DNA of 64,000 bases from Verrucomicrobiota bacterium. Lineage in GTDB: Bacteria > Verrucomicrobiota > Verrucomicrobiia > Chthoniobacterales > UBA10450. The position numbers were made by a program, and so were the translations under genes. Below the pieces are notes generated by a model, which worked only from the letters and a program-made list of their open reading frames with translations, searched no databases and was not told the DNA's origin. Location of the stretch: contig QHNH01000011.1 in the NCBI GenBank assembly GCA_003218375.1, forward strand, positions 1-64,000, given 5' to 3'. This document shows, in pieces, positions 4,180 to 55,639 of this stretch (the first letter of the stretch is position 1; the number at the start of each line of letters is the position of its first letter).

Positions 4180-5121
4180 ATGACAAAACGGGGCAAAAAC
4201 ACATTTTCTAGCGGCCATCTCGCTATCCTTGCCACGGTCGTCATCTGGTCGACCCCGTCGCTCTTTCAGTTCTATCTGATCCGCTATTACGAACCGTGGT
4301 CGCAAAATTTTTACCGGTACCTTGTCGGGTTCCTGGCGGTGCTGCCGTTCGTGCTCCTGCGATTTCGCGGCGGCGGCCCGCGATTAAATGCGCAGGACTT
4401 CCTCGCCTGTCTCATTCCATCGCTGCCCAACGTCGTTCATCAAATCACTCAGACCGTGGCGCTCTACCACATGGGGCCCGGCGTCTACGCCATCTTCGGG
4501 CGTTCCACCGTCATTTTCACCGCGCTCCTCGCCCTTATCTTTTTTCCAGAGGAACGAAGCATCGTCCGGCAATGGCAATTTCAAGTCGGAACCACGCTCG
4601 GGCTCATCGGGGCGGTGGGGGTGGTTTGCTTCCAGGAAGGCTGGCAGGCTGGGGCGCTGCCGTTGCGCGGCTTTACGATCGCTTTCATCGCGAGCTTTTG
4701 CTGGGCGCTCTACAGTGTCCTCGTGAAGCGGCCTTCCGCGCGGCTCGGGCCGATCCGCAGTTTTGGTGTGATCAGTTTCATTACGTCAGTGTTGCTCTTG
4801 CCGCTTACCCTGGCGTTCGGAAAAATCGAGACACCGCTGCGCGTCGATGCCGGCGTAAACCTGATCCTGATCGTATCCGCTGTGACTTGCATCAGCCTCG
4901 CCCACGTTTTGTATTACGTGGCGATTCGCAAGGTGGGCGTCGCGCTTTCTCAAACGCTCCAGCTTATTTGCCCCGCCGGGGCCTTGGGACTCTCCGCGCT
5001 TTTCTTCGGCGAACGCCTTACCCCGGCGCAGCTCTGGAGCGCGGGACTGCTGCTTTTCGGCGCCTATCTCGCCATGCGCGTGAAACCGCCAGCCGATCCC
5101 GCGGCGCTCGAAGAAGTTTGA
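4180..5121 (+). CDS. EamA/DMT-family inner-membrane transporter
   Basis: The 313-residue product has about ten hydrophobic helices and the internal two-fold repeat of the drug/metabolite transporter superfamily (EamA domains). Each half ends with a Gly-rich helix; the second contains ALGLSALFFGERLTPAQLW, the typical EamA ending. The substrate cannot be deduced; family members export amino acids, nucleosides or metabolites. The gene is divergent from the TPR pair. Its last 58 bases overlap the 3' end of the convergent gene at 5064-5498. Confidence 0.85.
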   Translation: MTKRGKNTFSSGHLAILATVVIWSTPSLFQFYLIRYYEPWSQNFYRYLVGFLAVLPFVLLRFRGGGPRLNAQDFLACLIPSLPNVVHQITQTVALYHMGPGVYAIFGRSTVIFTALLALIFFPEERSIVRQWQFQVGTTLGLIGAVGVVCFQEGWQAGALPLRGFTIAFIASFCWALYSVLVKRPSARLGPIRSFGVISFITSVLLLPLTLAFGKIETPLRVDAGVNLILIVSAVTCISLAHVLYYVAIRKVGVALSQTLQLICPAGALGLSALFFGERLTPAQLWSAGLLLFGAYLAMRVKPPADPAALEEV

Positions 5122-9597: not shown

Positions 9598-11172
9598 TCA
9601 AGGTTTTAGTTCGGTCCCGGTCTGGGCGTCGGTAATAACGAACTTTTCATGGTGAAAACTCGGGTCGCCGCGGAACAACAACCGCCCCGCATATCGCCGC
9701 TCCAGTTCGATCAGGAACTCTTCATCCTCCTCCTTCAGTCTCTTCAACACGTCAGGATTCAAAATGATGCGCAATTCGTGCACGGTTTCCTGATATTTTC
9801 GCATCACGGTGTTGAGGGTGCGATGCAGCTCCACGCTGGTGGTCATCGACGTTTTCACCACCCCGCGGCCCTGGCAATACGGGCAATTCTCGTAGATGGA
9901 ATCGCTCAGGCTTTCCTGGGCCCGTTGCCGTGTCATTTCCATCAGGCCCAGGGCGGAAAGCGGCAGGACGTGGGTCTTGGCCTTGTCGCGCTTGAGCCGC
10001 TCCTTCATCAAGCTGTACACCGTCTGCTGGTCCTTCCGGCTTTTCATGTCGATGAAATCGCCGATGATCAGCCCGCCGATATTCCGCAGGCGCAATTGCC
10101 GCGCGATTTCGTCGGCCGCTTCCAGGTTCGTTTGCAGGATCGTTTTCTCGACGTCGCGCCCGCCCTTGTTGCGCCCCGTGTTCACGTCCACGGCCACCAG
10201 GGCCTCCGTCTCGTCGATCACGATGTAACCGCCGCACCTCAGCCAGACCTGGCGATGGAAGGCGTCGTCGATTTGTTTCTGGACGCCGAACGTCTCGAAG
10301 ATCGGCGTCGCGCCGTCGTAGAACCGGATGCGGTTGCGCGCCCGGCGCGAGATCTGGCCCACCATCGCGTTCATCCGGTCGATCGCGGCCTGATCGTCGC
10401 AGATTACTTCGTCGATGTCTTCCGTCAGAAAATCTCGCACCGTGCGCTCGACCAGGTCCGGCTCTTCAAAAACGCGGCAGGGTGCCGGCTCGTTTTTGAT
10501 CAGCTCCTCGACCCTCGCCCATTGCTCGACCAGCATGCTGAGGTCGCGCACGAAATAGCGCGCGCGCTGGCCCTCCCCGACAGTGCGGATGATCACGCCC
10601 ACGCCTTCGGGAATTTCCAGGCTCCGCAGGATCTTGCGCAGACGATCGCGTTCTTTCGGGTCCTCGATCTTGCGCGAAATGCCGCTCCGATCGCTGTAAG
10701 GCATGAACACCAGGTAGCGCCCGGCAAAACTCAGGTTCGTCGAAACCCGCGGCCCTTTCGTGCCGATCGGGCCCTTGGTCACCTGCACGATCACATCCGA
10801 GCCGACGGGATAAATGCTCGGAATGTCCTTGGCCGTGATCCGCTTTTTCGGCCGGCGATCTTTCGGCCGGTCGATTTCCTCGATGCCGCTGTCGAGCGCG
10901 GCGGGAATCGCGTCCCAGAAATGGAGGAACGCATTTTTCTCGAAGCCGATGTCCACGAACATCGCCTTCAACCCCATCTCTATGTTCTTAACTTTTCCCT
11001 TGTAAACGCTGCCAACAATGTTCCGGGAAGTGTTCCGCTCGACATTGTATTCTTCCAGGCGTCCGTTCTCGAGTAACGCCACCCGGCGCTCGAGCTTTTC
11101 GACGCTGATTACTAATTTGTTGCCGGTCTTGGGGCCACCAAGACCTAAAATCCGTCTGACTTTTTCCATCAT
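9598..11172 (-). CDS. rng: Ribonuclease E/G family endoribonuclease
   Basis: The 524-residue protein has an S1 RNA-binding domain (about 50-150, with VYKGKVKNIEMGLKAMFVDI) and the RNase E/G catalytic core. The metal-binding aspartates are D329 in VAVDVNTG and D372 in GDFIDM, and the zinc-link cysteines are in NCPYCQGRG. It cleaves single-stranded A/U-rich RNA in mRNA decay and rRNA maturation. The length fits RNase G; it has no long C-terminal degradosome scaffold as in E. coli RNase E. It follows the mre/mrd operon with a 78-base gap, as rng follows mreBCD in many bacteria. Confidence 0.95.
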   Translation of the reverse strand: MMEKVRRILGLGGPKTGNKLVISVEKLERRVALLENGRLEEYNVERNTSRNIVGSVYKGKVKNIEMGLKAMFVDIGFEKNAFLHFWDAIPAALDSGIEEIDRPKDRRPKKRITAKDIPSIYPVGSDVIVQVTKGPIGTKGPRVSTNLSFAGRYLVFMPYSDRSGISRKIEDPKERDRLRKILRSLEIPEGVGVIIRTVGEGQRARYFVRDLSMLVEQWARVEELIKNEPAPCRVFEEPDLVERTVRDFLTEDIDEVICDDQAAIDRMNAMVGQISRRARNRIRFYDGATPIFETFGVQKQIDDAFHRQVWLRCGGYIVIDETEALVAVDVNTGRNKGGRDVEKTILQTNLEAADEIARQLRLRNIGGLIIGDFIDMKSRKDQQTVYSLMKERLKRDKAKTHVLPLSALGLMEMTRQRAQESLSDSIYENCPYCQGRGVVKTSMTTSVELHRTLNTVMRKYQETVHELRIILNPDVLKRLKEEDEEFLIELERRYAGRLLFRGDPSFHHEKFVITDAQTGTELKP

Positions 11173-11250: not shown

Positions 11251-12492
11251 TCATCTGCGCACCGGCCGTTGTTTCGGCGGTGGCGTGGGTGCTGGCGCCG
11301 GCTTCGGGCGGACGCCAAAAAGTCTTTCAAAAAAGCTGAGCTTGCGCGGCGGCGGCGTGGCCACGACCACAGGGCGCGGAGCCTTCTTCACTTTGCCGGC
11401 CGCGTCCGCTTCCGGTTCCACCGAAGGATCGGCGCTGGTATTGGCCATGTCGCTGCTGGTCGAGCCGTCGAGATTTTCTTCATCGGTCGCGGCCAATTTC
11501 GGGCCCGAGTCCTTGAACTCCACGGCCGGAATCATCTGGAACGGATTTGCTTTCCGGGCCGGCGCGATCCAGGCGACCTGCTGTTGAAACGTTCCCTGGT
11601 CCATCGCCAGGGCGCGCTCGAGAATGCGGGTGGCGATCGGCGCGGCGACCGAGCCGCCGTGTTCGCCGCCTTGGACCATCACCGCGATCGTGTACTTCGG
11701 GTTATCGAACGGGGCAAAGCAAACGAACCACGCGATCGTGTCCTTTTTGCCCTCCGTCATCGCCTGCGCGGTGCCGGTTTTACCAGCGACCTGCACGCCT
11801 TGCAAGCGCGCCCGCGCCGCAGTGCCGCCATCTTCGTTCACCACTTTCCAGAGTCCGCGCCGCGCCAGCTGGATTAGTTGCGGCGGGAAATCGAAGCGCA
11901 AATCGTGATGGATTCTCGGCGCCGGATTAACCACCGGCTCGCCTTTTTCGTTCAGGATCGGCTTGCCGTCCACCATGCTGGTCACGCTTTGGACGAGCTT
12001 CGGATAATAGGAGACGCCGCCGTTCGCGACCGTGGCATACACCATCGCGAGCTGGAGCGGAGTGAGGAGATTGTAGCCCTGGCCGATCGAGACGTTCGCG
12101 GTGTAAGCCTGCGACCAGCGTTCGCGCGGATAATGGATCCGCATCCACTCCGGCCCGGGCAGCACCCCGGGAGATTCACTCGTGATCTCGATCCCGGAGG
12201 TTTTTCCCAGGCCTAACGAGTCGCCGGTTTCATCGATCGCCTCGATCCCGGCGGCATTTCCAAACTGATAGAAGAAGGAATTGCACGAAACCTTGATCGC
12301 GTCCGAAACGCCCAGGGTACCGTGGCTTCCGCCTTTCTCGCCAATCCAGCAATGGAAAAAATGGTCGCCATAGCTGACCCCGCCACCGCAGTTGAAAGTC
12401 TTGGTGGCCAGGCCTCTTCGCAGGCCGGCGAGGGTCGTCACCAGCTTAAAGGTGGAGCCGGGCGGAAACGCGCTCACGGCGCGATTCACCAT
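11251..12492 (-). CDS. mrdA: Penicillin-binding protein 2, C-terminal fragment (gene disrupted)
   Basis: This frame holds the transpeptidase domain of PBP2, which crosslinks peptidoglycan during rod elongation. Visible motifs are the nucleophile box PPGSTFK near residues 11-17, SCNSFF near 69-74 and KTGTAQ. A Pro/Ala-rich tail closes it. In this frame the homology continues upstream of the first ATG (about ten residues of FIPSIKAKDWEALR type) into 12555, where it ends abruptly. The N-terminal part is in a different frame at 12503-13420. The segment joining the two, about 28 residues in homologues, is missing, so the gene as read cannot make full-length PBP2. Confidence 0.85.
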   Translation of the reverse strand: MVNRAVSAFPPGSTFKLVTTLAGLRRGLATKTFNCGGGVSYGDHFFHCWIGEKGGSHGTLGVSDAIKVSCNSFFYQFGNAAGIEAIDETGDSLGLGKTSGIEITSESPGVLPGPEWMRIHYPRERWSQAYTANVSIGQGYNLLTPLQLAMVYATVANGGVSYYPKLVQSVTSMVDGKPILNEKGEPVVNPAPRIHHDLRFDFPPQLIQLARRGLWKVVNEDGGTAARARLQGVQVAGKTGTAQAMTEGKKDTIAWFVCFAPFDNPKYTIAVMVQGGEHGGSVAAPIATRILERALAMDQGTFQQQVAWIAPARKANPFQMIPAVEFKDSGPKLAATDEENLDGSTSSDMANTSADPSVEPEADAAGKVKKAPRPVVVATPPPRKLSFFERLFGVRPKPAPAPTPPPKQRPVRR

Positions 12493-12502
12493 TGGGTTTG
12501 CT

Positions 12503-13420
12503 TCATCCTTTCGGAGCGCTTCCCAATCCTTCGCCTTGATGCTCGGGATGAATGTATTGGCGCAAGGCCTCTTCCGCGATCATCTGGATACGGGCGTCGA
12601 TCGTGAGGTTCACATTCGCGCCCGCCGTCGGCGGCACTTCGCGGAGCACGCCATCGATCTGCCCCTTCGCGTTCCGCCGCATGTAACGGATGCCCGGTTT
12701 GCCCTTCAAATATTCATCCATCGCCTTCTCGACATTGGATTTTCCCTCGACGTCCGCCTGGTAAAACGTGAACTTCTTCGCTTCCTCCTTGTTCGTGTCG
12801 TCCGGCGGACCGACGTAACCGAGCAAGTGCGAGGCGAGCGCGCCATACACATAGGAGCGCACCGGCTTGATCGTGATGTCCACGCCCGGCAACCCCACGT
12901 CGTGCTCGGAAAATTTCGCCATCGTCTCGAAATCGATGTCCTTCAGGTAGGAATACGGCACCTCGGTATTGGTGCGGAAATGGCGCTGGAGCTGGACGGA
13001 ATTGTAGTCGCGCGCCAGATCGAGATCGTCGAGCCGCGGGACGATGCCGCTATTGACGATCTTGACGATGTCGGGCTCCTTCAGGTCTTTCGGCATGCCG
13101 TTGATCGTGGTGCGATACCCGGTCAACGGCGGCGGGCCCACGCGTTCGCGATAACCCTTCACCATTTCCGGCAGATAAAAGTCCACCTCATAACTGGCGC
13201 GGTTTTGGACGAGCGTGGTTCCGTTGCGATCCCGGATTTCGCCACGCACCGAAGGAATCCGGACGGTCGCTTCCGAGCTTCCGCGAATCTTATTCGTCCA
13301 CTCCTGCCCGTGCGCGACCTGCACGAACCAGAGCCGGCCGAGGAGCGCGGCGAGACCCGCCAGGAAAAGAAGGCCGAGGAATTGCAAACGCCAGCGCGCG
13401 TTAAAACGTTTTTGGTTCAT
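12503..13420 (-). CDS. mrdA: Penicillin-binding protein 2, N-terminal fragment (gene disrupted)
   Basis: This frame has the cytoplasmic start, one membrane helix (FLGLLFLAGLAALLGRLWFV), and the PBP dimerisation domain with VRGEIRDRNGTTLVQN and the LLGYVG block. It reaches VNLTIDARIQMIAEEALRQ, the edge of the transpeptidase domain. About 20 unrelated residues follow before a stop. The transpeptidase continues one frame away at 11251-12492. The start overlaps the mreD stop by one base (TAATG). Either a real lesion or a base-level assembly error is possible; since PBP2 is normally essential for rods, error or a second copy elsewhere should be suspected. Confidence 0.85.
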   Translation of the reverse strand: MNQKRFNARWRLQFLGLLFLAGLAALLGRLWFVQVAHGQEWTNKIRGSSEATVRIPSVRGEIRDRNGTTLVQNRASYEVDFYLPEMVKGYRERVGPPPLTGYRTTINGMPKDLKEPDIVKIVNSGIVPRLDDLDLARDYNSVQLQRHFRTNTEVPYSYLKDIDFETMAKFSEHDVGLPGVDITIKPVRSYVYGALASHLLGYVGPPDDTNKEEAKKFTFYQADVEGKSNVEKAMDEYLKGKPGIRYMRRNAKGQIDGVLREVPPTAGANVNLTIDARIQMIAEEALRQYIHPEHQGEGLGSAPKG

Positions 13421-13968
13421 TAGTAAGCTTCAGATGCATCCTGATCGGGACGATACGGATTTCTTGTTAGGCCGGCGAGATAATGCAGGAACCAGAAGGC
13501 GAGCGGCGCCATGATCATCGCGATGATGCCCGGCCCGACGATCTGCCACCAGGCTTCGCGAGTGAAGAAGAGCGAGCCGCGCCGGAATGAAATCATGAGG
13601 TATTGGGAAAGCAGGATCGCGGACGTGCACACGCCGCTCATTAGACAATGCACTTCCCAGCGTCCCCGGATAAACAAAGGCCTCAGCCCATGCATAATCG
13701 CCGCCAGCACGGCGTAGAGCAGTATTGACCATCCGATCGAGATTTCAACCCGGCTGCCCAGGACCTGGGCCGTCACCGCATCGAGCATGAACCCGGCGAA
13801 GAAAGCGAGCGCCATCACTGCCGGGAAGGGCAACGCCATCGCGCCGTAAAAAACAATGATCGGCACGATGTAAATGCGCGCGTTGAACATCCAGTCGAGC
13901 GGCGGAATGAAAAATTCGACGATTTGCGCCACGAACGTCAGGATGATGAGGATGACGAAGAAAATCAT
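13420..13968 (-). CDS. mreD: Rod shape-determining protein MreD
   Basis: The product is a 182-residue hydrophobic protein with about five to six membrane helices, matching MreD in size and in position between mreC and mrdA. MreD is an inner-membrane component of the elongasome. I place the start at 13968 (MIFFVILIILTF), not at 14016, because the 16 extra residues are encoded by the family F word array and not by normal coding sequence. Its stop overlaps the mrdA start by one base. Confidence 0.85.
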   Translation of the reverse strand: MIFFVILIILTFVAQIVEFFIPPLDWMFNARIYIVPIIVFYGAMALPFPAVMALAFFAGFMLDAVTAQVLGSRVEISIGWSILLYAVLAAIMHGLRPLFIRGRWEVHCLMSGVCTSAILLSQYLMISFRRGSLFFTREAWWQIVGPGIIAMIMAPLAFWFLHYLAGLTRNPYRPDQDASEAY

Positions 13969-13980
13969 GCGCGGAAAACT

Positions 13981-14101
13981 CGAAATCCGAAATCCGAAAT
14001 TCGAAACAAATTCCAATGAGCAATGATTAAGGTTCGAAACGGACTCATTCGAATTTCGGGCTTCGTCATTGTTTCGGATTTCGACATTCGGATTTCGTCA
14101 T
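13981..14101. repeat. Short-word inverted array (family F, copy 1) between mreC and mreD
   Basis: Words such as GAAATCCGAAATCCGAAATT (about 13981-14000) recur and are followed by the complementary TTTCGGATTTCGACATTCGG (about 14074-14093). The array overlaps the mreC stop codon and ends just before the true mreD start. If transcribed it would form a long imperfect hairpin inside the operon. Confidence 0.75.
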
Positions 14102-14901
14102 TTTCTCCCTGTTACCACAAACACATCCTCAAGATGCGAAAGATCCACCGCCGGCTGAATCCGCGCCTGGCTGTCGAGCTCACGCACCCGAAAACTTTGC
14201 ACCGTGCCGACGAGCAGGCCGGACGGAAAAACTCCGCCCACGCCGGAAGTATAAACTTTTGCGCTGGTTGGAAGATTCGCCTGCTTGGACAGAAAATTCA
14301 GATCGAGCATCGGCGTGACCGAGCCCGTTACCCGTTCGCCGGAAACGATCCCTTGCTCGCGACTGCCTTCGACCGTGCAGGCGACCTTGCAGTTTTCGTC
14401 CGAAATCAAAAGCACGACGCTGATGTTGTCGCCGACGGTCGCGGTCTTCCCCACCACGCCTTCGTCGGTCACCACCGGTTGGTCCGGTTCGACCTGGTCG
14501 TTCTTGCCGCGATTGATCGTGATAGTTCGCCACCAGGTGGATGAATCCCGCGTCAGAACTTCCGCCGGCACCAGCCGGAAGGGAGCGCGCTCGCGGTAAT
14601 TGAGCGCCCGGCGGAGGCGGTTGACCTCATGTTCGACGTCGCGGAGCGACTGGTTCGTCGCCTTGAGCGAGCGGTTCTCCACTTTCAACGAGGCGTTGTC
14701 CTTCTCCACTTCCTCCAGGGTTTGCAGCCCCGTGCTGACCGATGTGAACTGCTTTTTTATGGTTGAGCCGCTCGAGAGAAACGGGGATATGACTTTATAA
14801 AATCCCGCCTGGAGCTTGCGCGTTCCCTCCGCGCCGAAGGTGAGAAAATAGGCCAGGATCGCGCCGAGGACGGCAAGCGCGATGATGCTCGACCGGTTCA
14901 T
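14098..14901 (-). CDS. mreC: Rod shape-determining protein MreC
   Basis: The 267-residue protein has an N-terminal membrane helix (SIIALAVLGAILAYFLTF), a predicted coiled coil at about 65-100 (VEKDNASLKVENRSLKATN) and the periplasmic beta-barrel domain with VVTDEGVVGKTATVG and FPSGLLVGTV. MreC links the MreB cytoskeleton to PBP2 in the periplasm. It sits between mreB and mreD on one transcript. Its stop codon lies inside the word array at 13981-14101. Confidence 0.93.
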   Translation of the reverse strand: MNRSSIIALAVLGAILAYFLTFGAEGTRKLQAGFYKVISPFLSSGSTIKKQFTSVSTGLQTLEEVEKDNASLKVENRSLKATNQSLRDVEHEVNRLRRALNYRERAPFRLVPAEVLTRDSSTWWRTITINRGKNDQVEPDQPVVTDEGVVGKTATVGDNISVVLLISDENCKVACTVEGSREQGIVSGERVTGSVTPMLDLNFLSKQANLPTSAKVYTSGVGGVFPSGLLVGTVQSFRVRELDSQARIQPAVDLSHLEDVFVVTGRK

Positions 14902-14976: not shown

Positions 14977-16014
<1,038 letters not shown>

Positions 16015-33345: not shown

Positions 33346-33452
33346 CGGAACATAGACTTTCAGTCTGTGCGCCCAGCGGAGTTGTACTCTGCTGCCACGT
33401 TTGCAGCGGACAGAATGTCCGCTGGGCGCACAGGCAGGATGCTTATGTTCCG
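33346..33452. repeat. Four-hairpin palindromic element, family B copy 1
   Basis: The outer ends CGGAACATA/TATGTTCCG are inverted, followed by the shared TGTGCGCCCA/TGGGCGCACA. Outer hairpins: left ATAGACT-TTC-AGTCTGT, right ACAGGCA-GGA-TGCTTAT. Inner hairpins: CAGCGGAGT-TGT-ACTCTGCTG and GCAGCGGAC-AGAAT-GTCCGCTG. It begins 12 bases after the pheS stop codon and lies inside the pheS-pheT operon. Copies are at 36645 and 47613. Confidence 0.9.
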
Positions 33453-33473
33453 CAACACATTGAAACGGTTTAA

Positions 33474-36639: not shown

Positions 36640-36644
36640 CAGCC

Positions 36645-36759
36645 GCGGCGGAACATAGGTTTCCAACCTGTGCGCCCAGCGGGGTTCCACTCCGCTGCAA
36701 AAAAAGCAGCGGACAGAATGTCCGCTGGGCGCACAGACTGAAAGTCTATGTTCCGCCGC
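36645..36759. repeat. Four-hairpin palindromic element, family B copy 2
   Basis: Same plan as the copy at 33346, with ends extended to GCGGCGGAACATA/TATGTTCCGCCGC. Outer hairpins: left ATAGGTT-TCC-AACCTGT, right ACAGACT-GAA-AGTCTAT, whose complement is identical to the left arm of copy 1. Inner hairpins: CAGCGGGGT-TCC-ACTCCGCTG and GCAGCGGAC-AGAAT-GTCCGCTG. It begins 5 bases after the CARDB stop codon. Confidence 0.9.
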
Positions 36760-36814
36760 GAACGCGCGTGAAGAAGATTTGAAAATTTCCGCGCAAGCGG
36801 GACACTGCGCGAGG

Positions 36815-54904: not shown

Positions 54905-55636
54905 ATGCAGAGCGAAGCTCAAGCGCCCGTCTATAAACGTATCGTGCTCAAGTTGAGCGGGGAGGCTCTGCGCGAACGCGGCGCGAAGGAGAATATTTCG
55001 CCCCAGATCGTGCGCGAGATCGCCGAGCGGATCAAGGAAGTGAAGGCGCTCGGCGTCCAGACCTCGGTCGTGATCGGTGGTGGCAATATCTGGCGCGGCC
55101 TGGCCGCTCACCATCGCGGGATGGATCGAACGACGGCGGACTACATGGGCATGCTCGCCACGATCATCAACGGCCTGGCATTGCAAAGCGCGCTGGTCCA
55201 GCTCGGCGTCGAGACCCGGGTGCAAACGGCCATCGAAATGAAAAATGTGGCGGAGCCCTTCATTCTCGGGCGCGCGATCCGGCATTTGGAATTGGGACGC
55301 GTGGTCATCTTCGTCGCCGGCACGGGGAATCCGTATTTTTCCACGGACACGACCGCGGCCCTGCGCGCCAGCGAGATTCGCGCGGACGTGATCCTGAAAG
55401 CGACCAAAGTGGACGGCGTCTATGATCGCGACCCGAACATCGACGCTACCGCGCAACGCTTCGATCGGCTCACGTTTTCCGAAGCCCTCACCAAGCGGCT
55501 CCAGGTGATGGACTCGACCGCGTTCAGTCTTTGCATGGACAATCGGATCCCGATCGTGGTGTTCGACATGAACACACCGAGCAATTTCACCGATATCGTG
55601 CTGGGCAAAAAGATCGGCACCATGGTAACGGAGTAA
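54905..55636 (+). CDS. pyrH: Uridylate kinase
   Basis: The 243-residue hexameric UMP kinase has the bacterial pattern: [57 protein letters not shown], and [15 protein letters not shown]-type ATP-binding blocks (here [15 protein letters not shown]). It makes UDP and is separated from frr by 3 bases, the conserved pyrH-frr pair. Start candidates are 54905 (ATG) and 54896 (TTG). Confidence 0.96.
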
Positions 55637-55639
55637 CAC

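Follow-up and report, generated by a model that had tools for sequence, protein, structure and literature searches.

A probable assembly drop-out of 83 bp in the mre-linked mrdA gene of a soil Verrucomicrobiota genome

The gene for penicillin-binding protein 2 (PBP2, mrdA) that lies beside mreBCD in a soil bacterium of the Verrucomicrobiota is split into two frames by the absence of 83 bp. This absence is probably a drop-out of the assembly or its consensus, with mrdA probably intact in the organism itself. The window, a stretch of 64,000 nucleotides (positions 1 to 64,000 of contig QHNH01000011.1, assembly GCA_003218375.1), belongs to a MAG of 52 contigs that is 97.8% complete, referred to here as G000, and the contig that carries mrdA is 248 kb long. 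The organism would carry a full-length mre-linked mrdA, within which the contig lost a short stretch. We infer the technical cause indirectly: because the remnants of the gene are undecayed and similar small gaps occur in other genes, a faulty assembly is likelier than a real loss.

The genes of the locus are arranged on the minus strand in the order mreB, mreC, mreD, mrdA and rng. Intact copies were found of mreB (14977-16014; NF010539, 549 bits against a cut-off of 293; PF06723), mreC (14098-14901; TIGR00219, 134.9 bits against 92.75; PF04085) and the RNase E/G family gene downstream of mrdA (9598-11172; TIGR00757, 486 bits against 326). The gene at 13420-14016 is mreD-like by position and by a weak match to TIGR03426 (20.9 bits, below the cut-off of 34.85), and a search of Pfam gave no match for it. 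The original prediction that mreBCD are all intact therefore holds for mreB and mreC, whereas mreD, though open and in the expected place, scores below the cut-off of its family. The N-terminal fragment of mrdA (12503-13420, 305 aa) contains the membrane anchor and the PBP dimerisation domain (PF03717, 111.7 bits), and the C-terminal fragment (11251-12579, stop-free over 442 aa) contains a transpeptidase domain that lacks its first 28 model positions (PF00905, 177.9 bits, positions 29-299). Membership in PBP2/MrdA was defined as one protein scoring at least 455 bits to TIGR03423. The N-terminal frame scores 158.7 bits and the C-terminal frame 302.3 bits, neither reaching the cut-off because 83 bp are missing, whereas the intact orthologue of the nearest relative, G005, scores 527.5 bits and has a complete transpeptidase domain (PF00905 positions 1-299). 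The C-terminal frame contains the sequences STFK, SCN and KTG, which we take to be the SxxK, SxN and KTG motifs of PBP2. The domain order and the mreBCD-mrdA neighbourhood are those of PBP2/MrdA (TIGR03423), the class B penicillin-binding protein of the elongasome, and the window gene is closely identical to the intact genes of its genus, from which it differs by the missing 83 bp. The family matches of both pieces and the neighbourhood thus bear out the earlier naming of the disrupted gene as mrdA.

When the window gene was compared by BLASTN with one locus from each relative, a net 83 bp was absent from it relative to 29 of 29 loci. The same difference in 29 aligned loci is not due to chance, and as 83 is 27 times three plus two, it shifts the reading frame. 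The loss had been predicted to comprise roughly 85 bases, not one, and to lie at 12490-12600; the size agrees well, and the lesion is indeed in that interval, with the junction now narrowed to 12558-12560 on the minus strand. Homology of the N-terminal frame extends to ...AEEALR and is followed by about 18 residues read out of frame, while that of the C-terminal frame begins at (N)TFIPSIKAKDW, just as first described. The match of the C-terminal piece to the Pfam transpeptidase model begins at position 29, so the first 28 positions, which contain the AVVxDPxxGxILAM block, are missing, as had been expected from a loss of about 28 residues. The two frames overlap without a stop over about 77 bases (12503-12579), and the first ATG of the C-terminal frame is at 12492. 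The junction has no direct repeat, and microhomology, as judged from the sequences of relatives, is limited to one or two bases; slippage on a direct repeat or k-mer collapse at mrdA was ruled out on this ground. No homologue that naturally lacks the segment in a single frame was found among the relatives' 29 loci. A scan of GTDB returned 24 loci of related species, the best with 87% protein identity and none at species level, a scan from which very near records may be omitted.

The pieces of mrdA are under ordinary purifying selection. Against the nearest relative, dN/dS is 0.069 (721-722 codons), and the 27 other pairs among eight mrdA sequences gave 0.056-0.104. Polarised changes on the window lineage number 63.5 synonymous and 7.5 non-synonymous, compared with 84.5 and 11.5 on the G005 lineage, and no further stop or frame break was found within the 722 codons of the remnants. 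With dN/dS undiminished and no other lesion, selection on mrdA either continues in full or did so up to the moment of the loss, which dN/dS would not reveal if it were very recent. An old or decaying pseudogene is ruled out by the same dN/dS and by the lack of a second lesion.

Similar clean losses occur elsewhere in G000, and none was found in G005 or in a further relative, G007. Internal losses were scored by comparing 337 genes of G005 with about 640 kb of G000, and the same test was applied to G005 and G007. Out-of-frame internal losses of 53-83 bp were found in 3 of 337 genes in G000, 0 of 349 in G005 and 0 of 247 in G007. The excess is modest (3/337 versus 0/596, Fisher p 0.047), and it becomes p 0.017 for four events when a cytochrome c gene is added, a case counted after the fact. 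Besides mrdA, a Ser/Thr kinase gene (G000:C3:75161) lacks 71 bp out of frame, an absence confirmed against both G005 and G007, and a 730-aa gene (G000:C3:173600) has a clean out-of-frame gap of 53 bp (-80/-83 in all). The cytochrome c gene (G000:C3:129742) has a clean in-frame loss of 75 bp that removes two CxxCH haem motifs, both of which are kept in G005 and G007. In-frame losses occur in all three genomes and were left out of the counts, the cytochrome being told apart from them. Also dropped were a -118 event at G000:C3:147880, which lies upstream of a gene in weakly conserved sequence with a stop, and a -53 row from the G007 comparison, an antisense frame that coincides in position with the 730-aa gene. 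Within the window, where 23-42 genes were compared per relative for four relatives, mrdA alone was judged a true interruption; the remaining flags came from upstream or start extensions or from antisense frames and were set aside. Widespread base-level frameshifts were not found in G000, where attributable single-base frame breaks are almost absent, so that the frame breaks of this genome are mostly short drop-outs.

A comparison of the DNA itself shows losses of 58-106 bp more often in G000 relative to G005 than the other way round, many of them being intergenic and possibly repeats; clean losses of about 100 bp or more were left out of this count. Interspersed repeats of about 110 bp that are palindrome-like, matching both strands at the same place, were seen at 33346-33453 and 36644-36760 of the window, and they have many copies genome-wide, in tens of places in G000. 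An intergenic difference of 83 bp at window position 5118 corresponds to an apparently palindromic element present in G005. The spacer between pyrH and frr, genes named here by reading the sequence, is 3 bp long at 55635-55639, compared with about 76-197 bp in relatives, and is possibly another short loss that removed the spacer and any ribosome-binding site.

Several observations weigh for and against a drop-out. The 83-bp absence is unique among the good assemblies compared, which favours it. Against it, the contig is long and the genome good, and the other three losses, in the cytochrome, the kinase and the 730-aa gene, may be real. The junction has no long repeat that would account for a k-mer collapse. 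Neither G+C content nor hairpin strength is consistently extreme in the lost stretches, the mrdA stretch being G+C-rich and the other two not, and a hairpin or G+C extreme was rejected as a consistent cause.

Interruptions of mrdA are not confined to G000. Among 83 genomes of the family, 59 have mrdA in one frame of at least 711 of 753 residues, 17 have a partial gene or none, and 7 have a copy interrupted inside one contig (G000, G030, G062, G074, G077, G078 and G082). At the base level, about 101 bp are missing from G078, 53 bp from G074 and 44 bp from G082, at other positions and with a change of frame, while G030, G062 and G077 have smaller shifts. The gene pheT is indispensable, and as an essential single-copy control it was found broken in 5 of the 76 genomes that gave a match (G072, G074, G082, G097 and G099); both counts were made by hand from match coordinates. 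As pheT is interrupted about as often, interruptions in related MAGs do not single out mrdA. The interrupted copies of either gene in other genomes stem from MAGs far more fragmented than G000. That the organism has a disrupted PBP2, as first proposed, is therefore not well supported, given the undecayed remnants, the other drop-outs and the frequency with which pheT is broken. The original prediction had itself listed an assembly error among the points to check. Genome assembly is documented as a source of false pseudogenes (PMC11017572), and our case resembles the spurious pseudogenes described there in having a frame break, intact near relatives and no other decay. Those cases (PMC11017572) are internal stops and frameshifts in isolate assemblies, whereas here a clean 83 bp is absent from a MAG.

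The alternative that deserves most attention is a real and very recent deletion allele, with elongation proceeding without the mre-linked PBP2 by means of a second PBP2-type protein, RodA and MreBCD. We consider this possible, though rather unlikely. The surrounding contig is otherwise in frame, no second copy of the mre-linked mrdA was found in G000, and a search of G000 with the 84-bp G005 counterpart of the missing stretch returned matches at chance level and hence no separate copy of that stretch. A look through the genome for another PBP2, as the original prediction had suggested, did find one in a single open frame at G000:C43:10710-12605 (TIGR03423, 492 bits against 455). FtsI and FtsW on C3 and RodA on C10 are likewise single open frames, RodA scoring 285.9 bits to TIGR02210, below the cut-off of 336.7, and 158.9 to NF037961, over the cut-off of 150. 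Eight transpeptidase-family matches were found in G000, four of which (723-902 aa) read as putative class A PBPs. A class D beta-lactamase is encoded at G000:C28:173495-174316 (NF012161, 278 bits against 250), with an OXA-2-like best sub-family match below the cut-off of that family.

The second PBP2 is about 36% identical to the mre-linked mrdA and, unlike it, does not lie beside mreBCD. The PBP2 profile matches it from position 40 on, a signal-peptide-like N-terminus taking the place of the region that matches positions 1-40; the N-terminus was readable in 28 of 30 loci, and in most of these it looks by eye like a signal peptide. A match to this protein was found in 58 of 58 genomes at E <= 1e-20, mostly close and near full-length, and in 68 of 83 family genomes at E <= 1e-95, those without it being mainly incomplete MAGs. 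It is present across the order in relatives with an intact mrdA, and is therefore an old companion of that gene and not a fresh replacement. This coexistence and its N-terminus mean that it is no obvious stand-in for the partner of RodA. Real loss is further opposed by unrelaxed selection on the mrdA pieces and by the similar short losses in several other conserved genes of the assembly. The fuller proposal, that this free-living spartobacterium lost its mre-linked PBP2, which is otherwise universal and probably essential, keeps MreBCD and RodA, and elongates with a second PBP2 whose N-terminus resembles a cleavable signal peptide and not the usual membrane anchor, is more doubtful still.

Published work bears on a real deletion from both sides. 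In a transposon sequencing study of Verrucomicrobium spinosum, mreB and mreC are essential, as is each of the three COG0768 genes (VSP_RS19470, VSP_RS08025 and VSP_RS17750) (PMC12283558). Because VSP_RS17750 adjoins mreC (VSP_RS17760) and mreB (VSP_RS17765) by locus tag, it is probably the mre-linked mrdA. The second PBP2 is a candidate for the other essential COG0768 gene of V. spinosum. V. spinosum belongs to another order, and essentiality there need not carry over. The same study gives the listed COG0768 genes of the planctomycete Planctopirus limnophila as not essential (PMC12283558), which means that such genes are not essential throughout the superphylum. A precedent for two paralogues sharing the elongation role is provided by PBP2 and PBP2SAL of Salmonella (PMC10492807). 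The likeness lies in two paralogues per genome, one of which can be dispensable there under some conditions; Salmonella, however, belongs to another phylum and its additional paralogue is pathogen-specific, whereas the pair described here is conserved throughout an order.

A mixture of strains, with both an intact and a deleted allele in the sample and the latter written out by the assembler, is improbable. The remnants look as though they were active until very recently, which a mixture would accommodate, yet a second allele was not seen in the assembly, in which the 84-bp counterpart matches no better than chance. MAGs are population consensus sequences, and a mixture would be in keeping with this. 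A working product made by +1 ribosomal frameshifting in the stop-free overlap at 12503-12579, which would fuse the frames, or as two separate chains, is scarcely credible, as fusion would not restore the roughly 28 residues missing from the beginning of the transpeptidase domain, a separate C-terminal chain would start within that domain (at 12492) and have no export signal, and 0 of 29 relatives' loci lack the stretch.

If the absence is an artefact, as we think probable, then clean drop-outs of 50-85 bp can make essential genes look like pseudogenes even in a MAG that seems good (52 contigs, about 98% complete), and reads are needed before PBP2 is claimed to be lost on such data. If the absence is real, the mre-linked PBP2 would be replaceable in Verrucomicrobiota, even though its counterparts in V. 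spinosum are reported to be essential.
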